Source: Sutcliffiella horikoshii
GTDB taxonomy: Bacteria > Bacillota > Bacilli > Bacillales > Bacillaceae_I
DNA: 64,000 bases
Direction: 5' to 3'
NCBI RefSeq assembly: GCF_019931755.1
Contig: NZ_CP082918.1
Coordinates: forward strand, 910,001-974,000
Made by a program: the position numbers and the translations under genes. Positions 10,211 through 61,560 of this stretch are shown here, piece after piece. The notes below the pieces were generated by a model, which had not been told where the DNA came from, made no database searches, and was given only the letters and a program-made list of their open reading frames with translations. Within the stretch, counting starts at the first letter, position 1; the number at the start of each line of letters is the position of its first letter.

Positions 10211-10330
10211 AAAAAACACAATCATCAATGGAAAAGTTACAATAACACCTGAAAAAGTCACAATCATCAATAAAAAACTCATAATAACCTCTGAAAAAGT
10301 CACAATAACCCTCAAAAAAGTAATAATCCC
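10211..10330 (+). repeat. 21-bp periodic array, family with core GTCACAATAACC
   Basis: Cores of the type CACAAT/TACAAT/CATAAT begin at 10217, 10238, 10259, 10280 and 10301, exactly every 21 bp. A decayed sixth lies near 10322. The unit reads approximately GAAAAAGTCACAATAACC plus three bases. The array lies after the ptsG terminator and before the next promoter. The minus-strand frame across it is open and gives a 7-residue peptide repeat only because 21 is a multiple of 3. Confidence 0.9.
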
Positions 10331-10437
10331 AAATTTGAGCGGATCCCTCTAGTAATTTTAATACTTACCACTTAATTAATTTGTTATAGGTAACATTTAA
10401 TAGCGGAAAAATATATTTATATTTGTCTAATGTAACA

Positions 10438-10466
10438 TTGTAAGCGTTTTTCTTAACGTGTAGCAT
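10438..10466 (+). promoter_or_regulatory. Candidate promoter with cre-like site for the GH13_18 operon
   Basis: TTGTAA (10438-10443), a 17-bp gap and TAGCAT (10461-10466) form a weak sigma-A-like promoter. TTGTAAGCGTTTTT at 10438-10451 matches the CcpA operator (cre) consensus at most positions but differs at the last two, and overlaps the -35. This suggests catabolite repression of the operon. Promoter assignment is tentative. Confidence 0.4.
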
Positions 10467-10479
10467 AAACGTTAAGAAA
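10449..10479 (+). promoter_or_regulatory. Perfect 11-bp inverted repeat, probable operator or leader hairpin
   Basis: TTTCTTAACGT at 10449-10459 and ACGTTAAGAAA at 10469-10479 are perfect complements around a 9-nt spacer. The element covers the candidate -10 and ends 12 bp before the AGGAGGGA ribosome site. It could bind a dimeric repressor or activator, such as the CdaR-like protein encoded downstream, or act as a 5' mRNA stem. Confidence 0.6.
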
Positions 10480-10505
10480 CAACTAGCAACCAGGAGGGAT
10501 TCCTT

Positions 10506-12245
10506 TTGAACAACCAACAACAAGTTACAGAAGAGATGATGAGCAAGATCGAGTTTGTGTACGGAAAAGAGACAGCAGCTTACTTACAAGATAAATTAAC
10601 CAACCTAATGAATGAATATAGCGCAAAACTATCAACACCAAACAAGCCAAAAGAGTTTGTTACAGAAAAAGATGCGGTTCTTATCACTTACGGTGATTCC
10701 ATTAAGGAAGAAGGCAAAGCCCCACTTCAAAGCTTGCACGAATTCTTAAACGAAAACATCGGGGACAAGCTATCTGGTGTTCACATTTTGCCATTCTACC
10801 CTTATAGCTCGGATGATGGTTTTTCCGTCATTGATTATTACGAGGTCAACAAGGATTTAGGAAACTGGGAGGACATTAAGTCACTATCCGGTAGCTATGA
10901 TTTGATGTTTGACGGGGTTATCAATCATATTTCCGCAAAGTCAGAATGGTTCCAGGAGTATTTGAAAGGTAACGAAAAGTACAAAGAATACTTCGTGGAA
11001 GCTGATCCATCCCTAGACTACAGCAAAGTGACCCGTCCAAGAGCACTGCCGTTATTAACGGAATTTGAAACGGCAAGTGGACCAAAGCATGTTTGGACAA
11101 CATTCAGTGAGGACCAAATTGACTTGAATTACCGCAACCCGGATTTATTTTTACAGATTGCAGAACTTCTGCTTTTCTATATCAGCAAGGGTGCAAAAAT
11201 GATTCGTCTTGATGCAATCGGGTTCATGTGGAAGGAGATGGGGACGACTTGTATCCATCTAGAAGAAACACATAAAATTATTCAGACATACAGAGATGTT
11301 GTAGATACGCTTGCGCCAGAAGTAATCCTTATCACCGAAACGAATGTACCGCATAAGGACAATGTGAGTTATTTTGGAAACGGCTACAATGAAGCGCGCA
11401 TGGTGTATCAGTTCCCATTGCCGCCACTGACATTAAATACATTCCTGACAGGAGACGCGACTCATCTTCAAAATTGGGCAAGCAACTTGGAAGACACCAC
11501 CGAAGAGACTACCTTCTTCAACTTCCTTGCTTCACATGATGGTGTTGGCGTGAGACCGGTGGAAGGCATTCTTTCAAAAGAAGAAGTAGACCTTATGATT
11601 GAGAAGGTCCATGCGCATGGAGGAAACGTTTCCTATAAAGATAACGGAGATGGAACAAAGAGCCCTTATGAATTAAACATCAACTACTTTGATGCATTAT
11701 CTCATCCTGATGAGGATCAAACTATTCAGGTAAAGAGATTCCTTGCTGCACAGTCCATACTGTTAGCTATGGCGGGGGTGCCGGGAATTTATGTACACAG
11801 TCTGCTTGGTTCCCGTAATTACCAGGAAGGTGTAAAAGAAACTGGTCGTTTCCGTTCCATCAACCGGGAGAAATTGAACCGCCAGCAACTGGAGGCGGAA
11901 CTGAAGGACGAATCTTCTTTAAGACACGAAGTCTTATCAAATATGAAAAAAATGTTGGATGTTCGTACGAACGAAAAAGCGTTCCATCCAAACAGTCCGC
12001 AGCAGGTAGTGCTCGAAAGCAACCAAGTGTATGCATTGGTGAGAACGGACAAGGATACTGGCGAGAAAGTTGTAACACTTGTGAACGTATCCAATGAAGA
12101 GCAAGCGATCAACTTGTCTGCGGACAAATACGAATTAAATGTACAAACTTATATAAATCTATTTTCCAAGAAAGAAGTGGAGATTACAGACGAAGCGTTG
12201 TCCGTTACGCTACAGCCTTATGAAGTCATGTGGTTGAAAGGATAG
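10506..12245 (+). CDS. GH13_18 glycoside phosphorylase, probably glucosylglycerate phosphorylase
   Basis: The 579-residue protein is a GH13 subfamily 18 enzyme of the sucrose-phosphorylase group. Visible are HILPFYPYSSDDGFSVIDY, the nucleophile Asp in IRLDAIGFMWKEMGTTC, the general acid Glu in LITETNVPH, and the transition-state Asp in FLASHDGVGVRP. The acceptor-side segments RPVEG and SLLGSRNYQEG differ from sucrose phosphorylases as I remember them and look like the YcjM/glucosylglycerate phosphorylase branch. The next gene is glycerate kinase, which fits release of glycerate plus glucose 1-phosphate from glucosylglycerate and phosphate. The start is TTG 10506 with AGGAGGGA 7 bases upstream. 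Alternatives are glucosylglycerol or sucrose phosphorylase. Cytoplasmic. Confidence 0.8.
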   Translation: MNNQQQVTEEMMSKIEFVYGKETAAYLQDKLTNLMNEYSAKLSTPNKPKEFVTEKDAVLITYGDSIKEEGKAPLQSLHEFLNENIGDKLSGVHILPFYPYSSDDGFSVIDYYEVNKDLGNWEDIKSLSGSYDLMFDGVINHISAKSEWFQEYLKGNEKYKEYFVEADPSLDYSKVTRPRALPLLTEFETASGPKHVWTTFSEDQIDLNYRNPDLFLQIAELLLFYISKGAKMIRLDAIGFMWKEMGTTCIHLEETHKIIQTYRDVVDTLAPEVILITETNVPHKDNVSYFGNGYNEARMVYQFPLPPLTLNTFLTGDATHLQNWASNLEDTTEETTFFNFLASHDGVGVRPVEGILSKEEVDLMIEKVHAHGGNVSYKDNGDGTKSPYELNINYFDALSHPDEDQTIQVKRFLAAQSILLAMAGVPGIYVHSLLGSRNYQEGVKETGRFRSINREKLNRQQLEAELKDESSLRHEVLSNMKKMLDVRTNEKAFHPNSPQQVVLESNQVYALVRTDKDTGEKVVTLVNVSNEEQAINLSADKYELNVQTYINLFSKKEVEITDEALSVTLQPYEVMWLKG

Positions 12246-12258
12246 GGGGAGATGAAAA

Positions 12259-13416
12259 GTGAAAATTGTGGTTGCGCCAGATTCCTTTAAAGGTTCAATA
12301 GAGAGTAAGGAAGCGGCACACATCATCTCCCAAGCTATTCAGGATTTCGATGCCTCGATTGAGGTAGTCGAAATCCCGATGGCAGACGGGGGAGAAGGAA
12401 CGGTACAAGCGATGCTGCACATCCTTGGCGGGGAAGAAATCGTTTGTGAAGTAGAAGACCCGTTAGGAAGAAAAATTAGTGCAGGCTATGGTTGGCTGCC
12501 AATAGAAAAGACGGCCATTATTGAAACCGCTTCCGCATCAGGCCTACCTTTGCTGACAAAATTAGAGCTTGACCCTGCAAGGGCTTCAAGTTTCGGAACC
12601 GGACAGCTTGTGAAGGCTGCTCTAGACAGAGGAGCGGAGAAAATCATTATGGGCCTGGGTGGAAGTGCAACAGTGGATGCTGGTGTGGGACTCTTCCAAG
12701 CGCTCGGTTTAAAAGCCTACGATGAAAATGGAAAGACCATCGAACGTGTTGGCGGAAGGTTGGATTTAATTCAAGGCTTAGATATGGAGAGTTTTGATGA
12801 TAGACTCCCACAGGTAAAAATAATCGTCGCGTCAGATGTTACAAGTCCATTACTTGGCCCTGATGGCGCAGTATATGTATTCGGTCCGCAGAAAGGCGTG
12901 AAGACAAGCGAGCTTAAACCATTTGAAGCAGGCATGGCTTCTTTTGCAGAAGTGATGAAGAGAACTGTTGGAAAGGATTGCACCCTTAAGCCAGGAAGCG
13001 GAGCGGCAGGGGGTATCGGATTTACTCTCCAGTCATTTGTAGATGTAGAGTTCCAAAGCGGCCTTGACCTAGTTGTAGAAATGAGCGATTTCCGCAAACA
13101 TTTAAAGGACACGGACCTTGTGATTACAGGGGAAGGAAAGATTGATGGGCAGTCCATTCTTGGTAAGGTGCCAGTGGGGCTTTCACGGATAGCGAAAGAT
13201 AGAGGAATTCCGGTGGTGGCCATTGCTGGTGGTATTGGGGAAGATACGGACAGGTTGAAACAAGAAGGAATTGAAGCGGTCCTTTCGATTGTGGACGGAC
13301 CGATGCCTATAGAAGAGGCCATGCAAAACGGGAAAAAGTTATTATATGAAGCAACGAAAAGAATGTTGCACCTTATTGAAATTGGCACAAAGCTGAAGGG
13401 GGTTAGAGGAGAATGA
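12259..13416 (+). CDS. glxK: Glycerate kinase (GlxK/GarK type)
   Basis: The 385-residue protein matches type-1 glycerate kinases throughout: MKIVVAPDSFKGSIESKEAA at the start, PMADGGEGTVQAM, GLGGSATVDAGVG, GSGAAGGIGF and GEGKIDGQS. It phosphorylates glycerate, usually to 2-phosphoglycerate in this family, feeding lower glycolysis. The start is GTG 12259 with GGGGGAG upstream, 13 bp after the phosphorylase stop. Its last four bases overlap the symporter start (ATGA), so the three genes are an operon. This neighbour is the main reason to call the upstream enzyme a glucosylglycerate phosphorylase. Confidence 0.92.
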   Translation: MKIVVAPDSFKGSIESKEAAHIISQAIQDFDASIEVVEIPMADGGEGTVQAMLHILGGEEIVCEVEDPLGRKISAGYGWLPIEKTAIIETASASGLPLLTKLELDPARASSFGTGQLVKAALDRGAEKIIMGLGGSATVDAGVGLFQALGLKAYDENGKTIERVGGRLDLIQGLDMESFDDRLPQVKIIVASDVTSPLLGPDGAVYVFGPQKGVKTSELKPFEAGMASFAEVMKRTVGKDCTLKPGSGAAGGIGFTLQSFVDVEFQSGLDLVVEMSDFRKHLKDTDLVITGEGKIDGQSILGKVPVGLSRIAKDRGIPVVAIAGGIGEDTDRLKQEGIEAVLSIVDGPMPIEEAMQNGKKLLYEATKRMLHLIEIGTKLKGVRGE

Positions 13417-15038
13417 ATGGATTTACAACGATAGATTTTATTGTTCTCGTAGTATATGTGGTTGGAATTGCGATTTTTGGAGCGTTTTTCGGTAAGAATC
13501 AAAAGACCACCAAGGATTATTTCTTAGGTGGACGTAACATCCCTTGGTGGGCAGTGGGACTTTCTGTCATGGCAACACAGGCAAGTGCCATCACGTTTAT
13601 TGGTGCTCCTGGTTGGGGATATTCCGGTGGATTGGAAAGAATGAATACATTCATTAACATTCCACTTGTTATGGCATTTTTAATGGTTACGATTGTTCCA
13701 TTCTTTTATCGTACAGAAGTGTACACAGCTTATGAGTATTTGGAAAAGCGTTTTGATACGAAAACTAGAACATTAACAGCAGGTTTGTTTTTAATTGCTC
13801 GCGGCTTGGCTACAGGGGTAGTGCTTTATGCGCCGGCATTGGTTTTATCGGTTGTAACAGGTTGGGATGTCAATATTACGATTATTCTGATGGCACTAAT
13901 TGCAGTGGTTTATACTGTTCTTGGCGGAATTTCAGCAGTTATCTGGACAGATGTTGTGCAGATGTTTGTTCTTTGGTTAGGAGCAGGGCTTGCAATCTTC
14001 ACTATTGTTGGGGAGGTTCCAGGCGGATTTGCTGGTGCACTATCCATGGGTTCTGATGCAGGATTATTACAATCGCTTGATTTCTCTTTTGATTTATCCG
14101 TAGAGTACAGCATCTGGGCCGGGGTTATCGGTGGATTCTTTATGCATGCAGCTTACTTTGGGACAGATCAAAGTCAGATCCAGCGTGTGTTAACAAGCAA
14201 ATCGTTAAAAGAAAGTAAGATGTCTTTAATTATCAGCGGTCTTTTCATGTTCCCGCAAATGCTATTATTCTTATTCATTGGTATTCTGTTATTCGCTTTC
14301 TATGCGAATGTAGGAGATCCAAACGTGGAAAACTTGAACGAGTTATTCCCATTGTTTGTGGTAGAGTACCTACCGGTTGGAATTTCCGGATTAATTATCG
14401 CAGGGGTTTTTGCTGCAGCAATGTCTAGTCTTGATTCTGCATTGAACTCACTCTCTGCCGTAACAGTACGGGATTTTTACGCAAAATTCTTTAAGAAAAA
14501 TGCGAGTGAAGCACATTATTTAAACGCTTCACGTTGGGCAACAGTATTCTGGGGAATTTACGCGACGATATTTGCTTTCTTTGCAGGGAACCTTGGACCT
14601 GTCATTGAAACCGTTAACAAGATTGGCTCCTATTTTTACGGAGCATTACTAGGAGTATTCATCTTGGCTATCTTCGTCCGCCGTGCAAACGGAACTGGTG
14701 CCTTTGCCGGTGTCGTTGCGGGGATGGCAGCTGTTTGGGCTGTAACAACTTTTGCAAGCATATCTTGGTTGTATAACAATGTCGTAGGTGCGGTTGTAGC
14801 GGTTGCTGTTGGTTATGCGGTAAGTCTACTAACGAAAGCGCCGGTCAAAGAAAAACTGGATGGATTAGTTTTTGAAACGAACGATGAAAAAGTACAAAAA
14901 ATGTTGGCATCACGCCAGCAGTCCGCTGAAGAAATCGAAGAGGCGGAAGGGGAAAAACAGATGAAGAAATGGCCATATATCATGATTGCTTACTTCTTCG
15001 TAACACTTGTAATCCTATATGTAATTCAATCTATCTAA
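13413..15038 (+). CDS. Sodium/solute symporter (SSS family), probable glucosylglycerate or glycerate importer
   Basis: The 541-residue protein has about 13-14 membrane segments. SSS family marks are TKDYFLGGRNIPWWAVGLS, ATQASAITFIGAPGWGY, the segment YFGTDQSQIQRVLTSKS, and AAAMSSLDSALNSLSAVTVRDFY. The C-terminal hydrophilic tail (about residues 475-520) precedes one last helix. It is translationally coupled to glycerate kinase. In this operon it most plausibly brings in the glycoside that the phosphorylase splits, driven by sodium. The substrate assignment is inferred from context only. Confidence 0.88.
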   Translation: MNGFTTIDFIVLVVYVVGIAIFGAFFGKNQKTTKDYFLGGRNIPWWAVGLSVMATQASAITFIGAPGWGYSGGLERMNTFINIPLVMAFLMVTIVPFFYRTEVYTAYEYLEKRFDTKTRTLTAGLFLIARGLATGVVLYAPALVLSVVTGWDVNITIILMALIAVVYTVLGGISAVIWTDVVQMFVLWLGAGLAIFTIVGEVPGGFAGALSMGSDAGLLQSLDFSFDLSVEYSIWAGVIGGFFMHAAYFGTDQSQIQRVLTSKSLKESKMSLIISGLFMFPQMLLFLFIGILLFAFYANVGDPNVENLNELFPLFVVEYLPVGISGLIIAGVFAAAMSSLDSALNSLSAVTVRDFYAKFFKKNASEAHYLNASRWATVFWGIYATIFAFFAGNLGPVIETVNKIGSYFYGALLGVFILAIFVRRANGTGAFAGVVAGMAAVWAVTTFASISWLYNNVVGAVVAVAVGYAVSLLTKAPVKEKLDGLVFETNDEKVQKMLASRQQSAEEIEEAEGEKQMKKWPYIMIAYFFVTLVILYVIQSI

Positions 15039-15051
15039 GGTGTGAGTGACA

Positions 15052-15627
15052 ATGAATTCTTTCTTTTTACCAACAGTGATTTCTAAGAAACAGGCAGTAC
15101 AGTCCATTCAATCCTATCAAAATAATTGGATCACTAAATGGCAATCTGTATTAGGGGCGAAAAAGAAACTAACTTCCATGGAAATGGTCTATCTGCCATA
15201 TTGGTGCTACGATTATGAATATACTAGTCTGCAGATGAAAGAGCCTATTTGCGGGAAGGTTGCTGTGGAAACAGGGAAACAGTTGACGGCAATCCTACCA
15301 TCTACTGCAGGATTACAGGAATTAGACCTTTCAGATGGGGAGATAACTATGCTCCATGTGTCAGGAAATCCGGAACAGAAAGTGGCGGAAGAGGCTATCT
15401 ATTGGGAGGCTTTCACTAGAGAGAAAAAGAGAAAAGATATTCAAGTCACCATTACAGAAACTAACTTATTATATGTCCCGTACTGGCTAGGTTATGTGAA
15501 AAGTGGTAACCAGATGGAACTTGTAATAGTTGATGCCACCAGTGGGAAGGTTGATTTAGGAATCAAAGATGCCATGATACAAGCATTGATGGCAGGAAAA
15601 GAGAATGAAATACCATTAGCTAGATGA
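15052..15627 (+). CDS. Hypothetical cytoplasmic protein in the glycerate-glycoside operon
   Basis: The protein has about 191 residues, no signal peptide and no membrane segment. It contains a repeated pattern, VYLPYWCYDYEY (near residue 50) and LLYVPYWLGYV (near residue 145), suggesting two related halves. I do not recognise the family. ATG 15052 is chosen because AAGGTG lies 9 bases upstream; GTG 15046 would be only 3 bases away. It follows the symporter by 13 bp and ends in a strong terminator, so it is the last gene of the operon. Role unknown. Confidence 0.65.
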   Translation: MNSFFLPTVISKKQAVQSIQSYQNNWITKWQSVLGAKKKLTSMEMVYLPYWCYDYEYTSLQMKEPICGKVAVETGKQLTAILPSTAGLQELDLSDGEITMLHVSGNPEQKVAEEAIYWEAFTREKKRKDIQVTITETNLLYVPYWLGYVKSGNQMELVIVDATSGKVDLGIKDAMIQALMAGKENEIPLAR

Positions 15628-15636
15628 ATGAAAGTA

Positions 15637-31297: not shown

Positions 31298-32023
31298 ATG
31301 ACAGAGAAGAAAAAATTGTATGAAGTGGATTTGTATAAGCCTATTCAGAAGCATTTTGTGAAAGAAGGCTATGAGGTTTACGGGGAAGTGAACGACTGCG
31401 ATATTGCAATGGTTAAGGGGGACGCAGTAGTTGTTGTGGAGTTGAAACTGACTTTAAATGTACAGCTGCTCATCCAAGCGACAAAAAGGCAAAAGTTGAC
31501 GGATCTTGTGTATATAGCAATCCCGAAGCCGTCATTCAGTAGACGTTCCAAGCGTTGGACGGATCTGTGCCATTTGATTAAACGGCTTGATTTGGGATTG
31601 ATTGTCGTTTCATTCAGCGGGCGAGGTAAACGTGTGGAGGTCATGTTTGATCCGGTTCCGTTTGACCGGGCGAAAAGCATGCGCCAGAATAAACGGAAGC
31701 GTGATGCATTGGTAAAGGAAATGAACGGCCGTTCTTCTGATGTGAATCTTGGCGGAAGCAACCGGGTGAAGATAAGGACTGCCTATAAAGAGAATTGCGT
31801 TAGGATTGCATGCTATTTGGAAAAGTTCGGTCCCTTGTCCCCAAAAGCACTGCGGGATTTAGGTGCGGGTGAAAAAACCTCTTCTATATTGACAAAGAAT
31901 TATTACCGTTGGTTTGACCGAGTGAAACGGGGAACCTATGTGATAAGCGAAAAAGGGAAAACGGACCTTCGCGAGCATGCAGAGCTTGTGGAGCATTTTT
32001 TGGAGGAAAAGGAAATGGAATGA
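31298..32023 (+). CDS. DUF2161-type PD-(D/E)XK phosphodiesterase-like protein
   Basis: The 241-residue protein has an N-terminal PD-(D/E)XK core: EVDLYKPIQKHFVKEGYEV, then CDIAMVKGDAVVVVELKL, giving the Asp and Glu-x-Lys triad. A C-terminal winged-helix-like part follows (LSPKALRDLGAGEKTSSIL). ATG 31298 follows GGGGAGGTTGG with 20 bp from the helicase stop, so the two genes are probably one operon acting in DNA metabolism. Biochemical activity is unproven. Confidence 0.78.
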   Translation: MTEKKKLYEVDLYKPIQKHFVKEGYEVYGEVNDCDIAMVKGDAVVVVELKLTLNVQLLIQATKRQKLTDLVYIAIPKPSFSRRSKRWTDLCHLIKRLDLGLIVVSFSGRGKRVEVMFDPVPFDRAKSMRQNKRKRDALVKEMNGRSSDVNLGGSNRVKIRTAYKENCVRIACYLEKFGPLSPKALRDLGAGEKTSSILTKNYYRWFDRVKRGTYVISEKGKTDLREHAELVEHFLEEKEME

Positions 32024-32130
32024 GTTTGAGACTCTCCTGCCTCTTTAAGGGTGGGAGGGTCTTGTTGATTTTAGAGTTTAGGATGACATGAGGAGATGTG
32101 CAGATACCTATAGGGGGTATAAGGATAGGG

Positions 32131-32245
32131 AATCGGGCGAAAATTCAAGGTAATCGGGCGATAATAGCGAGGAATCGGGCGAAAATTTCAATTTACGGGC
32201 GATTTTTAAGATTATCGGGCGATTTTCAGGTGCAATCGGGCGATT
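32131..32245 (+). repeat. 21-bp periodic array, family with core ATCGGGCGA (locus A)
   Basis: Cores CGGGCG begin at 32134, 32155, 32176, 32196, 32216 and 32237, with spacings 21, 21, 20, 20 and 21 bp. The bases between are AT-rich and variable. The array lies downstream of the DUF2161 gene, in sense orientation, in a gap of about 415 bp. Its minus-strand open frame is an artefact of the period. Confidence 0.92.
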
Positions 32246-45430: not shown

Positions 45431-47286
45431 GTGTGCCAGGCATGGCATCTATCTAGGTGGTGAAAGTCCACTGTGGGGGTACACATCGACCAACCACTAA
45501 GGAAGCGCAAGGTACTTACCGTGAGGTAAGGGCGGGAGGAAGCGTGGAATAAAATCTTGGCTCGACGAACAGAAATCTGATACTAAGGCTCTTCAAAGGG
45601 ATGAGGCTCCTCAACAAGTCAAAGTCCAAAAGATGTGCGTAACTTTGTAGGGTAAATCAGGCGAGTAAAAGAGGAAAGATAGTTGTCTTACCCTGGGAGG
45701 TCTTGCGGATGTACCAAGGTACAGTCGAAAAAGGTTTGCCGCAAGAAGTCAGCCGAAGCCATAGTAGTGGAATTATTCCATGAAGGGCTGAACAATTTAT
45801 AGTGTTTCGACACCACGAATGCGTAAGTGAAGTGTTCCGAATGTGTTAATGGTGAACGTATGAGCGTATCTCAGAGGATAACCAAAATGGAATAATCACT
45901 TACTACGTGAACGGATAGGAGAAACGAGTGTGGAACTTTTAGAACAAATACTAAGTAATCAAAACATGAATGAAGCTTACCTTCGTGTCTATAAAAACAA
46001 AGGTGCGAGTGGGGTCGACGGAATAACGGTCGATGAATTAAAGCAATATCTGAAAGAGCACAAAGACGAGCTGCGTCAGCGCATCAGAACAAGAAAATAC
46101 CAACCACAAGCTGCCTTAAGAGTGGAAATCCCAAAAGAAAATGGCAAGATGCGCAAATTGGGAATACCAACAGTAGTGGATAGGGTAGTTCAACAAGCCA
46201 TCCATCAAATACTCAGCCCGATATTTGAAAAGCAGTTCAGCGAATTTAGTTATGGCTTCAGACCCAAAAGAAGCTGTGAGATGGCAATTATTAAAAGCCT
46301 TGAATTTCTAAATGATGGACATAACTGGGTTGTGGACATTGATCTTGAAAGGTTTTTCGATACAGTCCACCATGATAAACTCATGCGAATCATCTCTAAC
46401 ACAATAGATGATGGAGATGTCATCTCTCTAATAAGAAAATATCTCGTCAGTGGAGTGATGGTGAATGGAAGATATGAGACCACACCAGTTGGGACTCCGC
46501 AAGGAGGAAACCTAAGTCCACTTCTGAGTAATATTATGTTGAACGAATTGGATAAGGAACTAGAAAGTAGAGGACTCCAATTTGTAAGATATGCAGATGA
46601 CGCCCTAATTTTTGTGAAGAGTGAGAAAGCGGCTAATAGAGTGATGGATTCAATTGTACGGTTCATAGAAAAGAAATTAGGACTGATAGTCAACATGGAA
46701 AAGAGTAAAATCTCTCGTCCCAATGACTTGAAATTCTTAGGTTTTGGTTACTACTACGATAGTAAAAGTAAGAAATATCAAGTACGACCTCATCCTGACT
46801 CCATTCAAAAATTCCAACGGAAGCTTCGGAAATTAACAAAGCGAAATTGGAGTATACGGTTGGACTATCGAATAATAAAACTAAAACAAGTCATAATCGG
46901 ATGGGTTAATTACTTTAGAACTTCAAATATGAAAACAGCAATGACTGAGATAGACCAGAAGCTTCGCTCCAGAATCAGAGTTATCATTTGGAAGCAATGG
47001 AAGGTACCGAAAAAACAAATCAAATCGCTTGTCCAACTAGGAATTCCGAAGGAAGAAGCGAAAGGGTTAACTTTCTGTCGGAGAGGTTACCGGTTCATCG
47101 GACTATCAAAAGTTATTCATAGAGCTATCTCAAACAAAAGATTAAAGCAGAGGGGATTCCCCTCTGCTTTAGAACATTATCTAAAAGTACACACTGTAAT
47201 ATAAATTGAACCGCCGTATACGGAACCGTATGTACGGTGGTGTGAGAGGGGCGAAAATAATTTAAGTTATTTTCCCTCTACTCGAT
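45431..47286 (+). mobile_element. Group II intron, class C type, with maturase gene
   Basis: The 5' end GTGTGCCAGG begins right after a terminator T run. About 500 bp of structured RNA precedes the reverse-transcriptase gene. The domain V-like stem (GAACCGCCGTATACGG ... CCGTATGTACGGTGGTG) is at about 47210-47250. A domain VI-like stem and the CTACTCGAT 3' end follow. Insertion directly behind a terminator is the hallmark of class C introns. Boundaries are from motif reading; the 3' end could be off by a few bases. Confidence 0.88.
45930..47204 (+). CDS. ltrA: Group II intron reverse transcriptase/maturase
   Basis: The 424-residue protein has RT domains: KNKGASGVDGITVDEL (RT0/1), RKLGIPTVVDRVVQQAIHQI, SYGFRPKRSCEMAI, DIDLERFFDTVHH, GTPQGGNLSPLLSNIMLNEL, the catalytic FVRYADDALIF, and MEKSKISR with FLGF. 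The maturase X region follows (IIGWVNYFRTSNM). No HNH endonuclease domain is present, as expected for class C introns. The GTG start at 45930 is preceded by GGAGAAACGA. The frame is intact, so the intron may still be active. Confidence 0.95.
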   Translation: MELLEQILSNQNMNEAYLRVYKNKGASGVDGITVDELKQYLKEHKDELRQRIRTRKYQPQAALRVEIPKENGKMRKLGIPTVVDRVVQQAIHQILSPIFEKQFSEFSYGFRPKRSCEMAIIKSLEFLNDGHNWVVDIDLERFFDTVHHDKLMRIISNTIDDGDVISLIRKYLVSGVMVNGRYETTPVGTPQGGNLSPLLSNIMLNELDKELESRGLQFVRYADDALIFVKSEKAANRVMDSIVRFIEKKLGLIVNMEKSKISRPNDLKFLGFGYYYDSKSKKYQVRPHPDSIQKFQRKLRKLTKRNWSIRLDYRIIKLKQVIIGWVNYFRTSNMKTAMTEIDQKLRSRIRVIIWKQWKVPKKQIKSLVQLGIPKEEAKGLTFCRRGYRFIGLSKVIHRAISNKRLKQRGFPSALEHYLKVHTVI

Positions 47287-47710: not shown

Positions 47711-47872
47711 ATCGCCCGTTCTCTATTATCGCCCGTAATTTTAAATTTTCGCCCGATTACTTCTAAAAATCGCCCGTAAAATCGAAATTTCGCCCGATAA
47801 TGGTCGGAAATCGCCCGAAACGAAAATCGCCTCAGAATATAATAGAAAATCGCCCGAAACGAGAATCGAGCC
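47711..47872 (-). repeat. 21-bp periodic array, family with core ATCGGGCGA (locus B)
   Basis: CGCCCG cores on the plus strand begin at 47713, 47730, 47750, 47771, 47791, 47812 and 47851, with a decayed copy at 47828. Most spacings are 20-21 bp. The core is the reverse complement of locus A at 32131. It lies between yfhE and yfhD, downstream-sense of yfhE. Confidence 0.9.
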
Positions 47873-47952: not shown

Positions 47953-48075
47953 CTATCTGCGTCTTTCCGTATATCCGCCTACTCGGTCTGCCATTTTAAA
48001 CTCACGAGAGTAGGTAACTTCCTGCGTTTTGCTCAATGTAGTCTTTGTTTTTTCACGACGTTTTTTATCACTCAT
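47953..48075 (-). CDS. yfhE: YfhE family small protein
   Basis: The 40-residue basic protein reads MSDKKRREKTKTTLSKTQEV, followed by TYSREFKMADRVGGYTERRR. This matches the YfhE family of very small Bacillus proteins, including the conserved TQEV-Y-REFK-AD segment. AAGGAGGGATTCTTG before the ATG at 48075 is a strong ribosome site. It keeps the yfhD/yfhE order known in B. subtilis. Function unknown. Confidence 0.85.
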   Translation of the reverse strand: MSDKKRREKTKTTLSKTQEVTYSREFKMADRVGGYTERRR

Positions 48076-51041: not shown

Positions 51042-51149
51042 CTATATCACCCTCCATAGAGAATATCTTACATACTATATTAGTTCTTTTCCCTAATTAT
51101 CCTTTATTTAATACGGGCCAATGTGCTATGAAACGGAGTGAGAACCGAA

Positions 51150-51956
51150 ATGGGTAAAATAACAAAAATATCGGTACAGCAAAAAAACAAGGAAAGATTC
51201 AATATTTTCTTGGATGAGGAGTATGCGTTTGCTGTGTACGAAGGGACGCTATTGAAATTCCAGCTAGTAAAAGGCAAGGAACTGGACGAGCTGGATGTAG
51301 AAGAAATCCTCTACAGCGATCAAAGCAATAAAGCCTATAATGCCGCTGTTCACTATCTCTCGTTTAGGATGAGAACAGAAAAAGAAATAGAAGACTATTT
51401 AAAAGAAAAAGAATATGAACCGTTCATTACTAAAGAAATTGTCGTAAGACTGAAGGAGCAGGGTTATTTGAATGACAGGGAATTCACAAACGCGTATGTA
51501 AGGACTCAAGTGAACACCACCTTGAAAGGGCGAGGCGTCATTCAGAAGGAATTGCTTGAAAAAGGTGTGAACAAAGATATTATTGGGGAAGTACTTGAAT
51601 CGGAATACCGTCAGGAAACAGAGCTTGAGCATGCGGTAAAACTTGTTTTGAAGTATGCACCCAAATATAAAAAAGACTCCTTTAAAATCATGATTCAAAA
51701 AGTGGAGCAAGCATTAGTGAGGAAAGGGTACGCTTTTTCCGTTATCCAAATTGCAGTGGAAGAGGCGGAACTTGAGGAAGATACATCAGAAGAGTGGGAA
51801 GCAATTGCCAAACAGGCAGAAAAATACCACCGAAAGTACGCAAAGCTTGAGGGGTACGAATATAAGATGAAAATGAAGGGCGCCTTATATAGAAAAGGAT
51901 TCGGGATAGATTTAATTGATCGGTGGTTGGAGGAGAATGAAGGGAACGAAATTTAA
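51150..51956 (+). CDS. recX: Recombination regulator RecX
   Basis: The protein has about 268 residues and the RecX repeat architecture: ITKISVQQKNKERFNIFLDE at the start, YAFAVYEGTLLKFQLVKGKEL, then three-helix repeats (YLSFRMRTEKEIEDYLKEK, VRLKEQGYLNDREFTNAYV, GRGVIQKELLEKGV). RecX binds and modulates RecA filaments. ATG 51150 lies 11 bases after GGAG; GTG 51138 overlaps that site. recA is not nearby, as in B. subtilis yfhG. The coding region is followed at once by a periodic repeat array. Confidence 0.92.
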   Translation: MGKITKISVQQKNKERFNIFLDEEYAFAVYEGTLLKFQLVKGKELDELDVEEILYSDQSNKAYNAAVHYLSFRMRTEKEIEDYLKEKEYEPFITKEIVVRLKEQGYLNDREFTNAYVRTQVNTTLKGRGVIQKELLEKGVNKDIIGEVLESEYRQETELEHAVKLVLKYAPKYKKDSFKIMIQKVEQALVRKGYAFSVIQIAVEEAELEEDTSEEWEAIAKQAEKYHRKYAKLEGYEYKMKMKGALYRKGFGIDLIDRWLEENEGNEI

Positions 51957-51972: not shown

Positions 51973-52090
51973 AAATGGTAGAACATTCATGATTAAGTGT
52001 ACAAGTTTGCTCGGGAAATGTAGAAGAGAATCCGGGAAATGTAGAAGGTCCGCTCAAAATGGAAGAACAATTAATATTGGATGTAGAAGT
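51973..52090 (+). repeat. 21-bp periodic array, family with core AAATGTAGAAGG (locus C)
   Basis: Cores TGGTAGAA, TGTACAAG, TGTAGAAG, TGTAGAAG, TGGAAGAA and TGTAGAAG begin at 51976, 51998, 52019, 52040, 52060 and 52082, spaced 22, 21, 21, 20 and 22 bp. The array starts 17 bp after the recX stop with no terminator between, so it should be in the recX 3' untranslated RNA. Confidence 0.88.
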
Positions 52091-56625: not shown

Positions 56626-56668
56626 AATTAAGAAGGATCAACCATTAGCGGTTGATCCTTTTGCATGT

Positions 56669-56893
56669 TCAGTCATAACTTATACGGGTTCCATGTGTCC
56701 AATCTGCTTCATGACGCTGAAATCCGCCACGCGCTTCGATTTCTTTCACAATCTCCCTGTGAATGCTTTGTCCCTCTGCATTTAAATAAGGAACCATTTG
56801 TTGCAAGGAATGGTGAAAGTAAGCCAGTTCGCTGTCTTTCCATTCTTTTTTGGAATGCATGGATAATTCGGTCATGTCACGTCCAACGTACAT
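56669..56893 (-). CDS. yfhS: YfhS-like small protein
   Basis: The 74-residue protein reads MYVGRDMTELSMHSKKEWKD, followed by SELAYFHHSLQQMVPYLNAE and a C-terminal HGTRISYD. Its place between mutY and fabL on the minus strand and its length agree with B. subtilis YfhS. AGGAGGCAG precedes the ATG. Function unknown. Confidence 0.75.
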   Translation of the reverse strand: MYVGRDMTELSMHSKKEWKDSELAYFHHSLQQMVPYLNAEGQSIHREIVKEIEARGGFQRHEADWTHGTRISYD

Positions 56894-56962
56894 AGCTTTC
56901 TGCCTCCTTTATGGCAATGTATATGCTGTTATTGTTTGATGAATCAATAAGCCTTATACTGA

Positions 56963-57754
<792 letters not shown>

Positions 57755-57836
57755 AATATACAGAAAATATTTTTTTATTTTTTGTCATAGTTTCCTTTCG
57801 AAATGGTTATCTTAAATTTCGTGGAGGTGATAAACA

Positions 57837-58040
57837 ATGGCAAACAACAACCAACAAAACCAAGCAGGTAAAACAGCTTCTGGTACAAGCGTACAACACG
57901 TGAAACAACAAAATGCTCAACAAAACCAACAACAACAATACGGTGCTGAGTATGCGAGCGAAACTAGCGCGCAACACGTGAAACAACAAAACGCTCAATC
58001 TGCAGCGAAAAAGAACCAACAAAACCAACAACAACAATAA
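57837..58040 (+). CDS. sspE: Gamma-type small acid-soluble spore protein
   Basis: The 67-residue protein is built of Gln- and Asn-rich segments with two repeats around TSVQHVKQQNAQ and TSAQHVKQQNAQSAAKK and the protease-sensitive YGAEYASETSA site between them. This is the gamma-SASP pattern; it is shorter than the 84-residue B. subtilis SspE because the repeats are compact. GGAGGTGATAAAC precedes ATG 57837. It is a storage protein degraded at germination and normally sigma-G dependent. Confidence 0.92.
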   Translation: MANNNQQNQAGKTASGTSVQHVKQQNAQQNQQQQYGAEYASETSAQHVKQQNAQSAAKKNQQNQQQQ

Positions 58041-58054
58041 TTAAGCAATAACAC

Positions 58055-58094
58055 GAAGCACTCCTTATCAAACCGATAGGGAGTGCTTCTTCGT
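58055..58094 (+). terminator. Terminator of sspE
   Basis: GAAGCACTCC-TATC pairs with GATA-GGGAGTGCTTC, followed by TTCGTT. Confidence 0.85.
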
Positions 58095-58116
58095 TGTGGA
58101 GGGCGAAAATCCTTGT

Positions 58117-58133
58117 GGGGTCTGACCCCTTTT
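58117..58133. repeat. GGGGTCTGACCCC palindrome, copy 2
   Basis: GGGGTCTGACCCCTTTT lies 84 bp before copy 3 and matches the element at 19088. Confidence 0.8.
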
Positions 58134-58200
58134 CGTTCGCCAAATTTAGACAAACTCTTCTGAGGTTGCTGCCTTCGACGTTAGGGTTGATTTTCCTGTA

Positions 58201-58217
58201 GGGGTCTGACCCCTTTT
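58201..58217. repeat. GGGGTCTGACCCC palindrome, copy 3
   Basis: GGGGTCTGACCCCTTTT is identical to copy 2. Between sspE and ygaB nothing else coding is seen. Confidence 0.8.
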
Positions 58218-58336
58218 GCAAATTTTTTTGCTCGACAAAACTTCCCTTAGCTCAACATATGTAGTCAAAGGGTTTGGAAGGGTGGGGGAGAATGTTATGG
58301 GTAGAGGGTATGGTATTTGGTAAGGAGGAGGATTTT

Positions 58337-58591
58337 GTGGTGGATAGGTTTGATGTGGCGGTGGCAGAGCAGTTGAAGACGATGGATAGGCTTTTGTTAC
58401 TTCAAGGGGAGATTGAACGGAACGAAAAGGCGATAGAGCAGTTGGAACAGTTGAAGGAAGAAGCAGAAAAGCTGAGAAAGTTGAAAGAGGATATAGAAAA
58501 AATGAAAGAGGAATTGGCGGAAATTCAATTAATTTTTGAAACACAAACAGAAGAGGCAATTAAATCTTTTCATTTGCAAGAGTCTATCTAA
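58337..58591 (+). CDS. ygaB: YgaB-like coiled-coil protein
   Basis: The protein has about 84 residues, highly charged and almost entirely coiled coil: AVAEQLKTMDRLLLLQGEIE, then EQLEQLKEEAEKLRKLKED and AEIQLIFETQTEEAI. The start is GTG at 58337 or 58340 after AAGGAGGAGG. Location between sspE and ygaC and the predicted helices agree with B. subtilis YgaB. Function unknown. Confidence 0.75.
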   Translation: MVDRFDVAVAEQLKTMDRLLLLQGEIERNEKAIEQLEQLKEEAEKLRKLKEDIEKMKEELAEIQLIFETQTEEAIKSFHLQESI

Positions 58592-58760
58592 ACGAATATT
58601 TTCTTATTAAATCAGAGCTTAATTAGAACGGTGGAGCTATCTTCTTTTCATAAAGATGGCTCTTTTGTTTTAAAATCTCACGGGAACCGTTATAATAGTA
58701 GAAAATGGTTTGCTTTTAGCTGAGAAGTGCGGGCATAAAATAGAAAGAAGGGGAAGAGGA

Positions 58761-59291
58761 ATGGGTTGTCCCAAAGAAGGTGAAACAATACAAATACATA
58801 GCTATAAGCACAATGGTCACATTCATAGAGTATGGGATGAAACGACTGTGCTTAAGGGGACGCAAAACCTTGTTATTGGTGGAAACGACAAAACCATTGT
58901 GACAGAGTCGGACGGTAGAACCTGGGTCACAAGAGAACCAGCGATTTGTTATTTTCATGGAAAGCATTGGTTCAATATCATCGGCATGATCAGAGAAGAT
59001 GGAGTGTACTATTATTGCAACATCAGTTCACCCTTTATAGCGGATGATGAAGCGTTGAAATACATAGATTATGACTTGGATATAAAAGTATTCCCGGACA
59101 TGACGTTTATTTTATTGGATGAAGATGAGTACGAGAAACACCGTAAAGAGATGAACTACCCAGAAGTAATTGATAAAATCTTGAAGAGTAATGTTCAAAC
59201 GTTGATCTCATGGATCAGGCAGCGAAAAGGTCCGTTTGCTCCCGACTTTATTGATTTGTGGTACGAGCGATACCTCACTTACCGAGGATAG
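58761..59291 (+). CDS. ygaC: DUF402 family nucleoside tri-/diphosphate phosphatase (YgaC)
   Basis: The 176-residue protein matches the Ntdp/DUF402 family: [65 protein letters not shown] and [13 protein letters not shown] with the metal-binding Asp residues. Staphylococcal relatives hydrolyse NTPs and NDPs. ATG 58761 follows GGGGAAGAGGA. Length equals the B. subtilis protein as I recall. Confidence 0.9.
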
Positions 59292-59299
59292 GTTCATCC

Positions 59300-59338
59300 A
59301 AAAGGCAACTGGTAACTTGATATGCCAGGCCTTTTTTG
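59300..59338 (+). terminator. Terminator of ygaC
   Basis: AAAGGC-CTGG pairs imperfectly with CCAGGCCTTT and is followed by T residues. Confidence 0.65.
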
Positions 59339-59383
59339 TTTTATGGCGAGTTAAAGCACCCTTTAAGTAATGAGTGTTCTCTA

Positions 59384-59510
59384 GCTGTTGATTGGAGCAC
59401 AGGGCGAAGACTCCTGAGGGAGATAGCGGTAGCTTGAGACCCCTGAAGCGTTGTGAGGAGGCTCAAGCACCGCCCCTAGGAAAGCGAAGCCCAGTGCGGA
59501 AATCAACAGC
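59384..59510 (+). repeat. GC-rich interspersed repeat, copy 4
   Basis: GCTGTTGATT and AATCAACAGC ends enclose GAAGACTCCTGAGGGAGATA, GCTTGAGACCCC, GAGGAGGCTCAAGCACCG and AAAGCGAAGCCC. It is about 90 bp before the ABC transporter start. Confidence 0.9.
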
Positions 59511-59597
59511 GGCGTATTTAAGAAATACATACATGTTTCAAATTGAAAAGCGGAAGCTAAATAGAAAGTTAGCAGTCATCATTTGGGAGGAAGTCAA

Positions 59598-61343
59598 TTG
59601 GATAGTATAAAACGGTACATGCAATTTGTGAAACCATACCGGTGGCAAATTGTCGGTACCATCCTTATAGGTATGCTGAAATTCGGGTTGCCATTATTAA
59701 TTCCTTTATTATTGAAATACGTCGTAGATGATATTTTACTTGCCGACGGTCGGTCAGCAGAGGAGAAAACGAACGAGCTGCTCATGATCATGGGGGCAAT
59801 CTTTGTGACCTTTTTGGTGTTAAGACCGCCAATCGAGTACTACAGACAATATTTTGCACAATGGACAGGCAGCAAGGTGCTATATGATTTAAGGGACAAG
59901 TTGTTCGATCATATTCAAAGGCTAAGCTTGCGTTTTTATGCCAACAACCGGGCAGGGGAAGTAATTTCAAGGGTCATCCATGATGTGGAACAGACCAAGA
60001 ATTTTGTCATCACCGGTTTGATGAACTTTTGGCTCGACCTTGCGACCATATTAATTGTCATCATCATTATGTTCCAAGTGGATATCACGTTGACACTTGT
60101 GTCTATCATGTTGTTCCCGTTCTATGGATTCTCGATTAAATACTTTTACAGTCGTCTGCGTCACCTCACAAGGGTGCGTTCACAGGCCCTTGCAGAGGTA
60201 CAAGGGCATTTGCATGAAAGAGTCCAGGGAATGCCTGTCATCCAAAGTATGGCGATTGAGGACTACGAGCAAGAGCAGTTTAAAAAACAGAACACAAACT
60301 TTCTGCAAAAAGCATTGGATCACACTAGCTGGAATGCAAAGACTTTTGCAGTAGTGAATACCATAACGGATATTGCGCCGCTTCTAGTAATCGGCTACGC
60401 GGGCTATCAGGTTATAAATCAGGGACTGACGGTAGGGGAAATGGTCATGTTTGTAGCTTATATTGACCGCCTTTACAATCCTTTGCGCCGATTGATTAAC
60501 TCTTCGACAACATTGACGCAATCCATTGCATCCATGGACAGAGTGTTTGAATTTGTGGATGAAAAATATGATATTACTGATAAGCCGAATGCGGTGGAAT
60601 GTAAGACAGCACGCGGTGAAGTGAGCTTTGAAAATGTTTCTTTTAAATATGAAAAAAATGAAGAGTATGTTTTGAAGAACCTGTCGTTGCAAGTAAGGGA
60701 AGGAGAAACCATTGCCCTAGTCGGGATGAGCGGTGGTGGAAAGTCGACCTTGGTAAGCTTGTTGCCGCGGTTCTATGATGTAACAGAAGGTAAAATCAAG
60801 CTCGATGGAGTGGACATTCGCGATGTTACCGTTCAGTCGTTACGGAAACAAATCGGGATTGTACTTCAGGACAGCATTTTGTTCAGTGATACCGTTCGTG
60901 ATAATATTGCCCTTGGAAAACCGGAGGCAACAATGGATGAGATTATTGAAGCGGCCAAAGCGGCCAATGCTCATGAATTTATCTCGAACTTGCCGGAGGG
61001 CTACGAAACGAAGGTGGGAGAGCGCGGTGTGAAGCTTTCCGGTGGACAGAAACAGCGTGTGGCCATCGCGCGTGTATTCTTAAAAAATCCGCCAATCCTT
61101 GTCATGGATGAAGCAACATCTGCACTTGATCTTGAGAGTGAACATTTGATTCAGGAGTCGCTAGAGCGTTTGGCTGCCAACCGGACAACTTTTGTTGTTG
61201 CCCACCGCCTGTCCACCATCACCCATGCGAGCCGCATTGTGCTGCTTGAGCACGGTGAGATTGTGGAAGTCGGTTCGCATGAAGAATTAATGAGGAAAAA
61301 AGGACACTATTATAATTTGTTTACGATACAAGAGATAAGTTAA
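59598..61343 (+). CDS. ygaD: ABC transporter, fused membrane and ATPase domains (YgaD)
   Basis: The 581-residue half-transporter has six membrane segments in the N-terminal 310 residues and an ATPase domain with Walker A GMSGGGKSTLV, Q-loop IVLQDSILFS, signature LSGGQKQRVAIARV, Walker B ILVMDEATSALD and H-loop VVAHRLSTI. It resembles multidrug/lipid exporters and should act as a dimer. The start is TTG 59598 with GGGAGG seven bases upstream; TTG 59583 would sit before that site. Matches B. subtilis ygaD by position. Confidence 0.92.
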   Translation: MDSIKRYMQFVKPYRWQIVGTILIGMLKFGLPLLIPLLLKYVVDDILLADGRSAEEKTNELLMIMGAIFVTFLVLRPPIEYYRQYFAQWTGSKVLYDLRDKLFDHIQRLSLRFYANNRAGEVISRVIHDVEQTKNFVITGLMNFWLDLATILIVIIIMFQVDITLTLVSIMLFPFYGFSIKYFYSRLRHLTRVRSQALAEVQGHLHERVQGMPVIQSMAIEDYEQEQFKKQNTNFLQKALDHTSWNAKTFAVVNTITDIAPLLVIGYAGYQVINQGLTVGEMVMFVAYIDRLYNPLRRLINSSTTLTQSIASMDRVFEFVDEKYDITDKPNAVECKTARGEVSFENVSFKYEKNEEYVLKNLSLQVREGETIALVGMSGGGKSTLVSLLPRFYDVTEGKIKLDGVDIRDVTVQSLRKQIGIVLQDSILFSDTVRDNIALGKPEATMDEIIEAAKAANAHEFISNLPEGYETKVGERGVKLSGGQKQRVAIARVFLKNPPILVMDEATSALDLESEHLIQESLERLAANRTTFVVAHRLSTITHASRIVLLEHGEIVEVGSHEELMRKKGHYYNLFTIQEIS

Positions 61344-61352
61344 TTTTTGAGA

Positions 61353-61391
61353 GCCAACCTTTAGCAGATCTGCTGGAGGTTGGTTTTTTAT
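61353..61391 (+). terminator. Terminator of ygaD
   Basis: CCAACCTT-AGCAGA pairs with TGCT-AGGTTGG and is followed by six T residues. Confidence 0.88.
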
Positions 61392-61419
61392 TTTTGGGAG
61401 AGGTTTTGTTGTGCGAGAT

Positions 61420-61560
61420 TTCCACCACGTTTTTGAGGGTTCTACCATTTAGAGGCGACCTTCTACCACTTTAGTGGTAATGTTCTACCGTTCACAGCCG
61501 ACCTTCTACATTTCCCTGATTACCTTCTACATTTCCCAAGCCACCTTCGACAATTAAGCA
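61420..61560 (-). repeat. 21-bp periodic array, family with core AAATGTAGAAGG (locus D)
   Basis: On the plus strand TTCCACC, TTCTACC, TTCTACC, TTCTACC, TTCTACA, TTCTACA and TTCGACA begin at 61420, 61440, 61461, 61483, 61504, 61525 and 61546, spaced 20, 21, 22, 21, 21 and 21 bp. This is the reverse complement of the recX-side core. It lies between convergent ygaD and ygaE, past the ygaE terminator. Confidence 0.92.

Follow-up and report, generated by a model that had tools for sequence, protein, structure and literature searches.

Two-turn direct-repeat arrays with exchangeable cores beyond gene ends in the Sutcliffiella horikoshii group

Results

Arrays in the window

The window (the whole stretch of 64,000 nucleotides of Sutcliffiella horikoshii DNA that was analysed) holds five arrays of direct repeats, of 6, 6, 7–8, 6, and 6 units spaced at about 21 bp, as established by direct reading together with repeat detectors (Table 1). 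According to a family scan, the ten proteins flanking these arrays are PTS, amylase, DUF2161, YdjM, intron RT, GNAT, RecX, SDR, ABC, and ArAE proteins, and neither parM/parR nor a rep or initiator gene was found among them. The six cores of array 1 are GTCACAAT-like, some having two or three mismatches by eye, and the same core family occurs at L029:14060-14180 and in genome G016 (L197:5079); the decayed core of array 3 sits, as the eighth, between the last two clear ones.

Table 1. Position and composition of the repeat arrays in the window.
Array	Coordinates	Strand	Units	Core	Core positions	Location
1	10211..10327	+	six, 21 bp	GTCACAAT(AACC)	starts 10215, 10236, 10257, 10278, 10299, 10320; every step 21 bp	~80 bp past 3' end of PTS gene (8100-10136)
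2	32129..32245	+	six, 20-21 bp	WWTCGGGCGAWWWT	six (T/A)CGGGCGA, 32133-32243; steps 21, 21, 20, 20, 21	~108 bp past DUF2161 gene (31298-32023)
3	47712..47860	-	seven clear, one decayed	TCGGGCGA	(T/A)CGGGCGA starts 47712, 47729, 47749, 47770, 47790, 47811, 47850; opening step 17	~93 bp past 3' end of small minus-strand ORF (47953-48075)
4	51974..52089	+	six, 21 bp	AAATG(G/T)AGAAG-like	six GTAGAAG-like, 51978-52089; step 21 bp; three of six degenerate	directly past recX (51138-51956), convergent with SDR gene
5	61440..61555	-	six, 21-22 bp	GTAGAA(G/C)	six GTAGAAG-like, 61440-61555; step 21-22	between convergent ABC-transporter (59583-61343) and ArAE-type (61613-62710) genes

Exact TCGGGCGA occurred nine times in the window against 0.86 expected, a count reached in 0 of 100 shuffles, with all nine copies inside arrays 2 and 3; TGTAGAAG occurred eight times against 1.74 expected (likewise 0 of 100 shuffles), five of the eight being in arrays 4 and 5. 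When two mismatches were allowed, the word GTCACAATAACC was not significant in the window (7 against 4.71 expected; 19 of 100 shuffles), so that the array of this word is supported by its spacing. As a single word TCGGGCGA was hardly enriched genome-wide, having 51 matches against 38 for the reversed control.

Periodicity and catalogue of arrays

Within 704 kb, including the window, the lag counts of intergenic 7-mers peaked at 21 (123) and 42 (80) against about 11 elsewhere, so that the excess of lag-21 autocorrelation on which the original prediction was to stand or fall is present. Intergenic identities of at least 67% over 63 bp were confined to lags of 20–21, 40–43, and 51–53 plus one at 60, and block shuffling abolished all of them. 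In 1.104 Mb of the genome of the Sutcliffiella horikoshii group, the high-identity intergenic repeats had periods of almost exclusively 20–21 bp, apart from a 52-bp family that is unrelated. With a low score threshold, Tandem Repeats Finder gave a less sharp intergenic picture, the periods of 12, 13, and 18 bp (7, 10, and 8 arrays) being about as frequent as those of 20 and 21 (9 and 9).

The catalogue for the 1.104 Mb comprises 24 arrays with about ten cores, 17 found by a chain detector and seven by Tandem Repeats Finder plus inspection by eye alone; all five arrays noted for the window are present, and the further 19 make the phenomenon larger than had been claimed. Removed before counting were the chain rows L071:19795-19993 (within a coding ORF) and L079:12264 (low-complexity AT), along with the rows L040:18934 and L026:11935, which had been picked by eye from Tandem Repeats Finder and are different repeat types; L047, a 52-bp repeat, was excluded, and L041–L046 and L048, chosen for holding TCGGGCGA, were tallied separately as targeted arrays. 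Extrapolation gives some 80 chromosomal array loci in the genome, adjoining ordinary genes.

Unit architecture

The predicted unit of 21 bp holds approximately for the window arrays, but the unit is 20 bp long in some families and 21 in others, with mixed 20/21-bp spacing for TCGGGCGA; similarly, the spacers, supposed to be AT-rich, are so in part but not throughout. The variable portion of the unit amounts to about 6–13 bp, and the arrays are about 90–150 bp long. Units have their cores in common and not their spacers: exact cores of 8–10 bp are common to distant loci, the identical core recurs at many loci where the spacers are unrelated, and spacers are kept between orthologs and not between paralogs. 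By eye, a left flank is common to three GTGGATAAA arrays and a right flank to two TTAGTCAA arrays. The cores had been said to have no sequence in common, and we claim no cross-family motif because the best 9-mer across 13 family consensuses, which differed from the motif expected by eye and was dropped, was matched in 4 of 120 shuffles; nonetheless, the cores of different families are not wholly unrelated in frame. A core-agnostic search found the architecture, with different cores, in further genera of the same order and, beyond that order, in a single genome.

At 10.25 bp the power of AT-dinucleotide (WW) phasing was 12.1 for 31 arrays and 2.05 for 358 control segments, a peak that is not independent of the repeat period, since 10.25 is half the mean unit length; the power of the arrays was 9.3 at 10.5 bp and 5.6 at 10.75 bp.

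Position relative to genes

Only one of the 31 arrays (L071:8026) lies in a divergent gap, as against 85 of 344 controls (p 0.003; one of 24, p 0.02, without the targeted arrays), while convergent gaps are modestly enriched (10 of 31 versus 53 of 344, p 0.02). Of 40 flanking 3' ends, 22 have a terminator separating the gene from the array, versus 2 of 40 on the wrong strand, in a comparison confined to gaps with arrays. In the window, the detector placed a terminator on both sides of array 5, none at either side of array 4, and none on the gene side of arrays 1 and 2; inside the 31 arrays it found none. The TCGGGCGA arrays in tandem gaps face both ways relative to the genes, two sense and five antisense. 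Folding gave no consistent RNA structure in seven tests (z from −2.08 to 1.40), the lowest value being that of array 2, which folds somewhat better than its shuffles, and Rfam at the gathering threshold gave no match on the window arrays. Stop codons in all six frames were present in only 9 of the 31 arrays, and therefore the frames alone do not exclude coding.

Orthologous loci and substitution rates

Orthologs of array 2 are present in L002–L005, L007, L009, and L062, and the orthologous DUF2161 gaps of L006 and L008 contain no array. Array 4 has orthologs in eight of the 16 genus genomes, that of L100 being decayed, and is absent from the other eight; in the gap of array 5 a GTAGAA-type array was found in 11 of 16 and none in four, while G017 carries there a GGCATGAACT-type array instead. 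By eye, short GGGGGTAT/ATACCCCC inverted flanks edge the DUF2161 array. An exact 21-bp unit duplication in L007 shows that units are indeed gained through slippage or unequal exchange, and L003 and L066 (the latter being the ortholog of L048 by eye) have fewer.

For the species whose arrays align well, the differences in core, spacer, and third codon position were, respectively, 0.063, 0.114, and 0.296 at the DUF2161 locus (four species); 0.057, 0.205, and 0.248 at recX (five species); and 0.071, 0.107, and 0.297 at ArAE (five species). At these three loci the cores thus evolved four to five times more slowly than the third codon positions, the spacers being intermediate; those at recX change at roughly the rate of the flanks (0.181 and 0.245).

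Core swaps

Of 15 genus genomes, 14 have an array in the gap behind a YtoI-like gene, G004 being the one that has none, and six different cores occur among the 14; the ArAE gap of G017 is a second gap with such a swap. In five of the six cores at YtoI, TATC is constant and the following 5 bp change in nearly all units together; the sister strains G014 and G015, for example, carry TATC-CATTG and TATC-AATAA, respectively. In a panel of 13 genomes (G017, having the other core, and G004 being omitted, and G003 having no ortholog), the units match the 5-bp consensus of their own array at 347 of 375 positions; with the differing consensus of other arrays they agree at 1173 of 3775, which latter figure is raised by the scoring of AAGAA/AATAA and CATTG/CATTC as different. 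The constancy of TATC is firm at this single orthologous site alone. That one mechanism might lie behind different cores, as originally suggested, is supported by an architecture recurring with many cores and by an orthologous gap holding different cores according to strain.

Phage and plasmid comparison

In two phage contigs, L207 and L209, a viral scan found TCGGGCGA repeats at lag 21 within ORFs that we read as putative replication initiators, and a viral contig of unrelated composition (L304/L305) carries a 21-bp GTCACAAT array with adjoining GTCACGTT units. Other viral matches look unrelated, consisting of GC-rich repeats (L208, L210, and L211) or of repeats in or over ORFs (L212 and L213); GTAGAAG gave 82 matches in the 80 stretches examined out of 90, 75 being simple coding repeats in an open frame and seven not. 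The TCGGGCGA phage matches could be due to chance, the collection being very large. Blastn located no matching array either in plasmids, for which four arrays served as queries, or in phages, for which two did; the plasmid search yielded five weak matches of 28–33 bp in Acinetobacter and Enterococcus plasmids. Finally, L306, the strongest HTH_36 match in the genus, which we read as a phage-type initiator, has no array of 20–21 bp. The link with phages and plasmids is suggestive at most.

Discussion

We propose, with about an even chance of being correct, that the arrays act as double-stranded DNA, each forming a platform of direct-repeat sites for protein binding. One unit corresponds to two helical turns (20–21 bp), so that some five to eight sites lie on the same face of the helix, and AT-rich patches every 10 bp or so make bending or wrapping easy. 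Each array has one recognition core common to its units, which in one clan consists of an invariant TATC (WATC) and some 5 bp that vary, and a set of cognate direct-repeat-binding proteins of differing core specificity may coat and wrap the intervals beyond gene ends without these being transcribed, in the manner of ParR on parC or of Rep proteins on iterons. The DNA-binding proteins with different core preferences invoked by the original prediction are supported in outline and give the best fit, the protein itself being putative. By analogy with the proposals for REP/BIME, the arrays would most likely serve to structure the chromosome locally or as insulation where genes end. The 3' insulators that were first suggested as an alternative would be compatible with the position of the arrays.

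Among other readings, that of decoys against mobile elements strikes us as unlikely: by resembling parC sites or origin iterons, the arrays would titrate away the ParR, Rep, or initiator of incoming plasmids or phages in a natural incompatibility, core turnover then reflecting an arms race. The several cores per genome, their restriction to the genus, the allelic swaps, and the repeats of L207/L209 and L304/L305 would suit such decoys, as would the plasmid incompatibility that is set in C. perfringens by parC repeats and the specificity of the cognate ParR (PMC9426499); against them stand the plasmid and phage searches without a matching array, the unrelated look of the other viral matches, and L306. 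Less probable still would be gyrase- or HU-type wrapping sites like BIME-2 of E. coli, for which the phasing of about 10 bp alone would be relevant. The AT phasing at 10.25 bp and the array length recall the gyrase motif of about 130 bp with periodic GC and the cutting of BIME-2 by gyrase, as described in PMC6379681, but the motif period given there is 10.75 bp versus 10.0–10.5 here, and phasing alone leaves unexplained the exact cores at distant loci with unrelated spacers.

We regard as remote the reading as neutral minisatellites, enlarged by a slippage process that mechanically favors two helical turns. The duplicated unit in L007 and the reduced unit numbers in L003 and L066 favor that process; the slow cores, and the fact that cores and not spacers are common to units and loci, are at odds with it, neither whole-unit homogenisation nor a neutral rate having been found, and replication slippage alone, one of the mechanisms first suggested, is not supported on those grounds. 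Non-autonomous MITE- or REP-like elements with subterminal transposase sites appear just as remote, in that the common flanks of the GTGGATAAA and TTAGTCAA arrays and the inverted flanks at DUF2161 speak for mobility, but in most families seen the core alone is common to loci, and spacer conservation is found among orthologs, not paralogs. Only the slightest probability goes to a role in the RNA of the upstream gene, as an element or a terminator, or to decayed coding repeats: the arrays do lie behind gene 3' ends, but they face both ways relative to genes, fold unremarkably, and contain neither a terminator nor, in the window, an Rfam match, and the units of 20 bp or mixed 20/21-bp spacing in several families speak against an origin from 7-codon repeats of lost genes.

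Returning to the binding platforms, a wider and rather doubtful extension would be a system of allelic "addresses" across the whole chromosome: dozens of arrays, phased at two turns, would share one frame, and their exchangeable cores, which switch in nearly all units together, would track co-evolving DNA-wrapping proteins, possibly with decoy immunity against plasmids and phages whose ParR or Rep read such repeats. No description of such arrays was recognised in the open-licence literature searched. If the proposal is right, what has been overlooked is a recurring kind of bacterial non-coding DNA that selection conserves even though its recognition words are interchangeable; it would point to a multi-specific family of DNA-binding proteins not yet known and be a bacterial counterpart of the fast-evolving pairs of satellites and binding proteins; close relatives with different cores in one gap would then be natural experiments for finding the cognate proteins.

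Comparison with known systems

In the iterons of plasmid Rep proteins and phage initiators, direct repeats in phase with the helix likewise carry a recognition core; the arrays differ in lying at many loci and in having several cores within one genome. Direct repeats of about 11–22 bp with a conserved core, as in parC and iterons, are what the arrays consist of. CRISPR was rejected in view of the period of 20–21 bp, of a variable part too short for spacers of about 30 bp, and of a scan of the ten flanking proteins, in which no cas family turned up. The GTGGATAAA cores resemble what we take to be the DnaA box, from which the other cores differ; the exact box TTATCCACA occurs in none of the five window arrays (three matches lie elsewhere) and in none of L021, L023, L034, L069, and L071. 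Clusters of DnaA boxes outside oriC in Bacillus subtilis are likewise clusters of binding sites and may titrate their protein (PMC5295017); a reading of the arrays as such clusters is not supported by the searches with the exact box. The E. coli gyrase motif has a similar AT/GC phasing over a similar length, and differs in its longer period and, as described in PMC6379681, in sites without a common core of 8–10 bp.

Closer are the type II plasmid centromeres, in which parC DNA wraps around a solenoid of RHH proteins and whose direct repeats (20 bp in pSK41 and 17 bp in pCW3) are of similar length and family-specific sequence, as in the arrays (PMC9426499); the difference lies in the extrapolated chromosomal loci beside ordinary genes. 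REPs are palindromes with GTAG/CGTC tags, whereas the arrays are direct repeats with no palindrome according to their layout and folding z; with REP/BIME (PMC3733652) they share the occurrence of several families per genome and an extragenic position downstream of genes, where the neighboring ORFs are unidirectional or convergent.

Period of the arrays in the source genome

The original prediction had claimed five intergenic arrays with units of about 21 bp in the window, and all five were confirmed. The window spans positions 910001-974000 of G000:C1, in a source genome (G000) that its close relatives assign to the Sutcliffiella horikoshii group. Against 100 shuffles of the window, TCGGGCGA (9 versus 0.86 expected) and TGTAGAAG (8 versus 1.74) had counts that no shuffle reached; for the core family of array 1, the word count alone was not significant. 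In the entire 4.5-Mb genome TCGGGCGA as a single word is hardly enriched (51 versus 38 for the reversed control), the enrichment sitting in the spacing and hardly in the word. The window also contains a group II intron with a reverse transcriptase/maturase ORF (45515-47286).

Arrays of the window, as established by direct reading and detectors
Array	Position	Strand	Units	Locus
1	10215-10327		six	
2	32133-32243		six	DUF2161
3	47712-47857	minus	seven clear, one decayed	
4	51978-52089		six	recX
5	61440-61555	minus	six	ArAE/ABC

Genome-wide intergenic autocorrelation, the check proposed along with that claim, gave a lag-21 excess. In 33 pieces (704 kb, window included), exact intergenic 7-mer repeats peaked at lags 21 (123), 42 (80), and 63 (29), with about 11 elsewhere, and the same count in coding DNA gave the usual 3-bp pattern. 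In 1.104 Mb (165,681 intergenic bases), identities of at least 67% over 63 bp were restricted to lags 20-21, 40-43, and 51-53, plus one at 60; no lag reached that identity in block-shuffled intergenic DNA. A chain detector returned 15 arrays at period 20 and 18 at period 21, and at most two at each remaining period from 12 to 35 except 19 (4), 22 (8), and 26 (23), of which the first two represent detector slack and the last is the half-period of a separate 52-bp family. With Tandem Repeats Finder (TRF) at low threshold, the 20-21 bp preference was less sharp. The 52-bp tandem family (window 5202-5403, many other pieces of the genome, and also G001, G004, and G016) has inverted, GAAGACC...GGTCTTC-like ends, and lag 52 dominates intergenic repeats, with 1152 counts in the source genome and 388, 255, and 254, respectively, in those three.

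We list 24 arrays in the source genome, 19 of them outside the window (17 through the chain detector, 7 through TRF and inspection by eye), from which some 80 per genome are extrapolated. Among the listed arrays in sampled pieces outside the window, density appeared higher in the first 1.08 Mb of G000:C1 (10 per 280 kb) than in the rest (9 per 760 kb).

Cores and their replacement

The source-genome cores include TCGGGCGA, GGCACGAACT, GTAGAAG, GTCACAAT, TTCGGTCAAC, TATATCAATAA, AATGGATATA, GTGGATAAA, TTAGTCAATAAA, and GGACAGTAAAT. Array cores are lineage-restricted: of 18 family genomes, 8 had TCGGGCGA pairs, and of 299 genomes in the order, 10 had GGCACGAACT pairs, all of them within Sutcliffiella; exact GTGGATAAA pairs were confined to one of the 16 genomes of the genus; and three of 397 genomes, two of which share a genus, had TTTGACCGAT pairs. 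Reversed-pattern controls of these pair searches returned nothing save one match in the TTTGACCGAT search and one in another. Though lags of 18-22 were permitted, all 81 of the GGCACGAACT matches listed lay at exactly 21. Three GTGGATAAA arrays (L021 18390, L023 8190, L071 10240) have by eye a common GTGTCGAATGACGGTTAT-like left flank, which suggests a defined element boundary. Two phage ORFs (L207 3248-4108, L209 5611-6225) look like replication initiators; both encode 7-residue repeats in frame, and at the DNA level these repeats form a 21-bp TCGGGCGA array.

Most stretches surveyed outside the genus held no array. A core-agnostic survey covering seventeen 20-kb stretches, drawn from 15 other genomes within the order, found arrays in three genomes: G001 (TAATCGGCGA, 7 units), G025 (TTTGACCGAT, 31 units), and G043 (GGGCRCAAT-type, 4 chained units). 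Fourteen further stretches added arrays in L180 (12 units) and L179 (5 units), besides a weak AT-rich one. Outside the order, 16 stretches held a single clear array of the same class (L163, 6 units) and a doubtful GC-rich one. With five stretches per genome, arrays were found in G004, G016, and G001; G013 had none in its five, yet has one at its YtoI site. The 31-unit TTTGACCGATAGAA array of G025 (L141 4995-5615) far exceeds the usual 5-8 units, and in G004 (L192 14591-15235) nearly the same GGTTCTCAC array recurs in three copies, at intervals of about 260 and 310 bp, within a larger repeated stretch.

In orthologous gaps the core may be another. The ArAE-ABC gap of 16 genomes held GTAGAA-type arrays in 11 (two, L119 and L124, with variant cores), a GGCATGAACT-type array in their place in G017, and none in four. 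The gap behind a 442-aa gene, which we take to be YtoI-like, held arrays in 14 of 15 genomes, G004 having none.

Cores at the YtoI site
Core	Genomes
TATC-AAGAA/AATAA	G000, G015, G007
TATC-CATTG	G008, G009, G012, G014, G006, G005
TATC-ATGAA	G010, G016
TATC-AGCCA	G013
TATC-GACGA/GACGG	G011
TTTTGTGCATAAAC	G017

In 13 genomes, 347 of 375 bases matched the 5-bp consensus of their own array, and 1173 of 3775 that of arrays with a different one. On the gene side, the source genome matches both G008 and G009, at about 87-91%, up to the array edge; beyond the array, G015, which has the same core, was the only genome to align with it. G014 and G015, sister strains in a recX+ArAE tree, carry different cores, and parsimony required 9 changes, absence and missing ortholog being counted as states. 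Allele exchange by recombination may be involved.

Unit turnover and evolutionary rates

Units are gained and lost over time: L007 has an exact 21-bp duplication, and L003 and L066 have three and two units. Among orthologous arrays, species with decayed ones (e.g., L003, L100, L120) being left out, pairwise differences at the DUF2161 locus (5 species) were 34/420 in the core, 101/730 in the spacer, and 0.346 and 0.274 in the flanks; with 4 species, core, spacer, and third codon positions gave 0.063, 0.114, and 0.296. The corresponding values in 5 species for core, spacer, flanks, and third positions were 24/420, 154/752, 0.181 and 0.245, and 0.248 at recX, and 28/392, 73/680, 0.213 and 0.304, and 0.297 at ArAE.

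Position, helical phase, and folding

With simple ORF calls taken as genes, 31 arrays lay in 10 convergent, 20 tandem, and 1 divergent gaps; the background gaps, all 150 bp or longer, numbered 53, 206, and 85, respectively (convergent excess p 0.02, divergent deficit p 0.003; 0.01 and 0.02 without the seven arrays targeted through one core). Of the 40 gene 3' ends that flank arrays, 22 have a detected terminator separating them from the array (wrong strand, 2 of 40), and none was detected inside any of the 31 arrays; in the window, terminators flank array 5 on both sides and array 3 on one, with none detected at arrays 1, 2, and 4. AT dinucleotides in the arrays recur every 10.25 bp (power 12.1 versus 2.05 in controls), the power at 20.5 bp being lower, at 4.4. 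Seven folding tests gave z values of 1.40, -2.08, -0.45, 0.12, 1.12, 0.16, and 0.89.

Interpretation

The first guess at a role is a REP/BIME-like structure or insulation. The most interesting rival is decoy immunity, which is compatible with an array in one viral contig (L304 12859-12960 and L305 1-103, at the ends of both pieces): a 21-bp AAAGTCACAATGGAGAGGCC array preceded by GTCACGTT units, which, as a GTCACAAT array, has the core word of window array 1 and lies in more GC-rich DNA. That array is also compatible with a shared architecture alone, and it does not change how probable the decoy reading is held to be.

The strict two-turn spacing, the single core per array, the slow core evolution, the constant-plus-variable core of the TATC clan, and the probably untranscribed positions suggest that the arrays are DNA platforms, at which putative cognate proteins would wrap the DNA, as happens at plasmid parC (PMC9426499). 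Searches of an open-licence library brought up no description of such arrays, and their novelty is judged within that scope.
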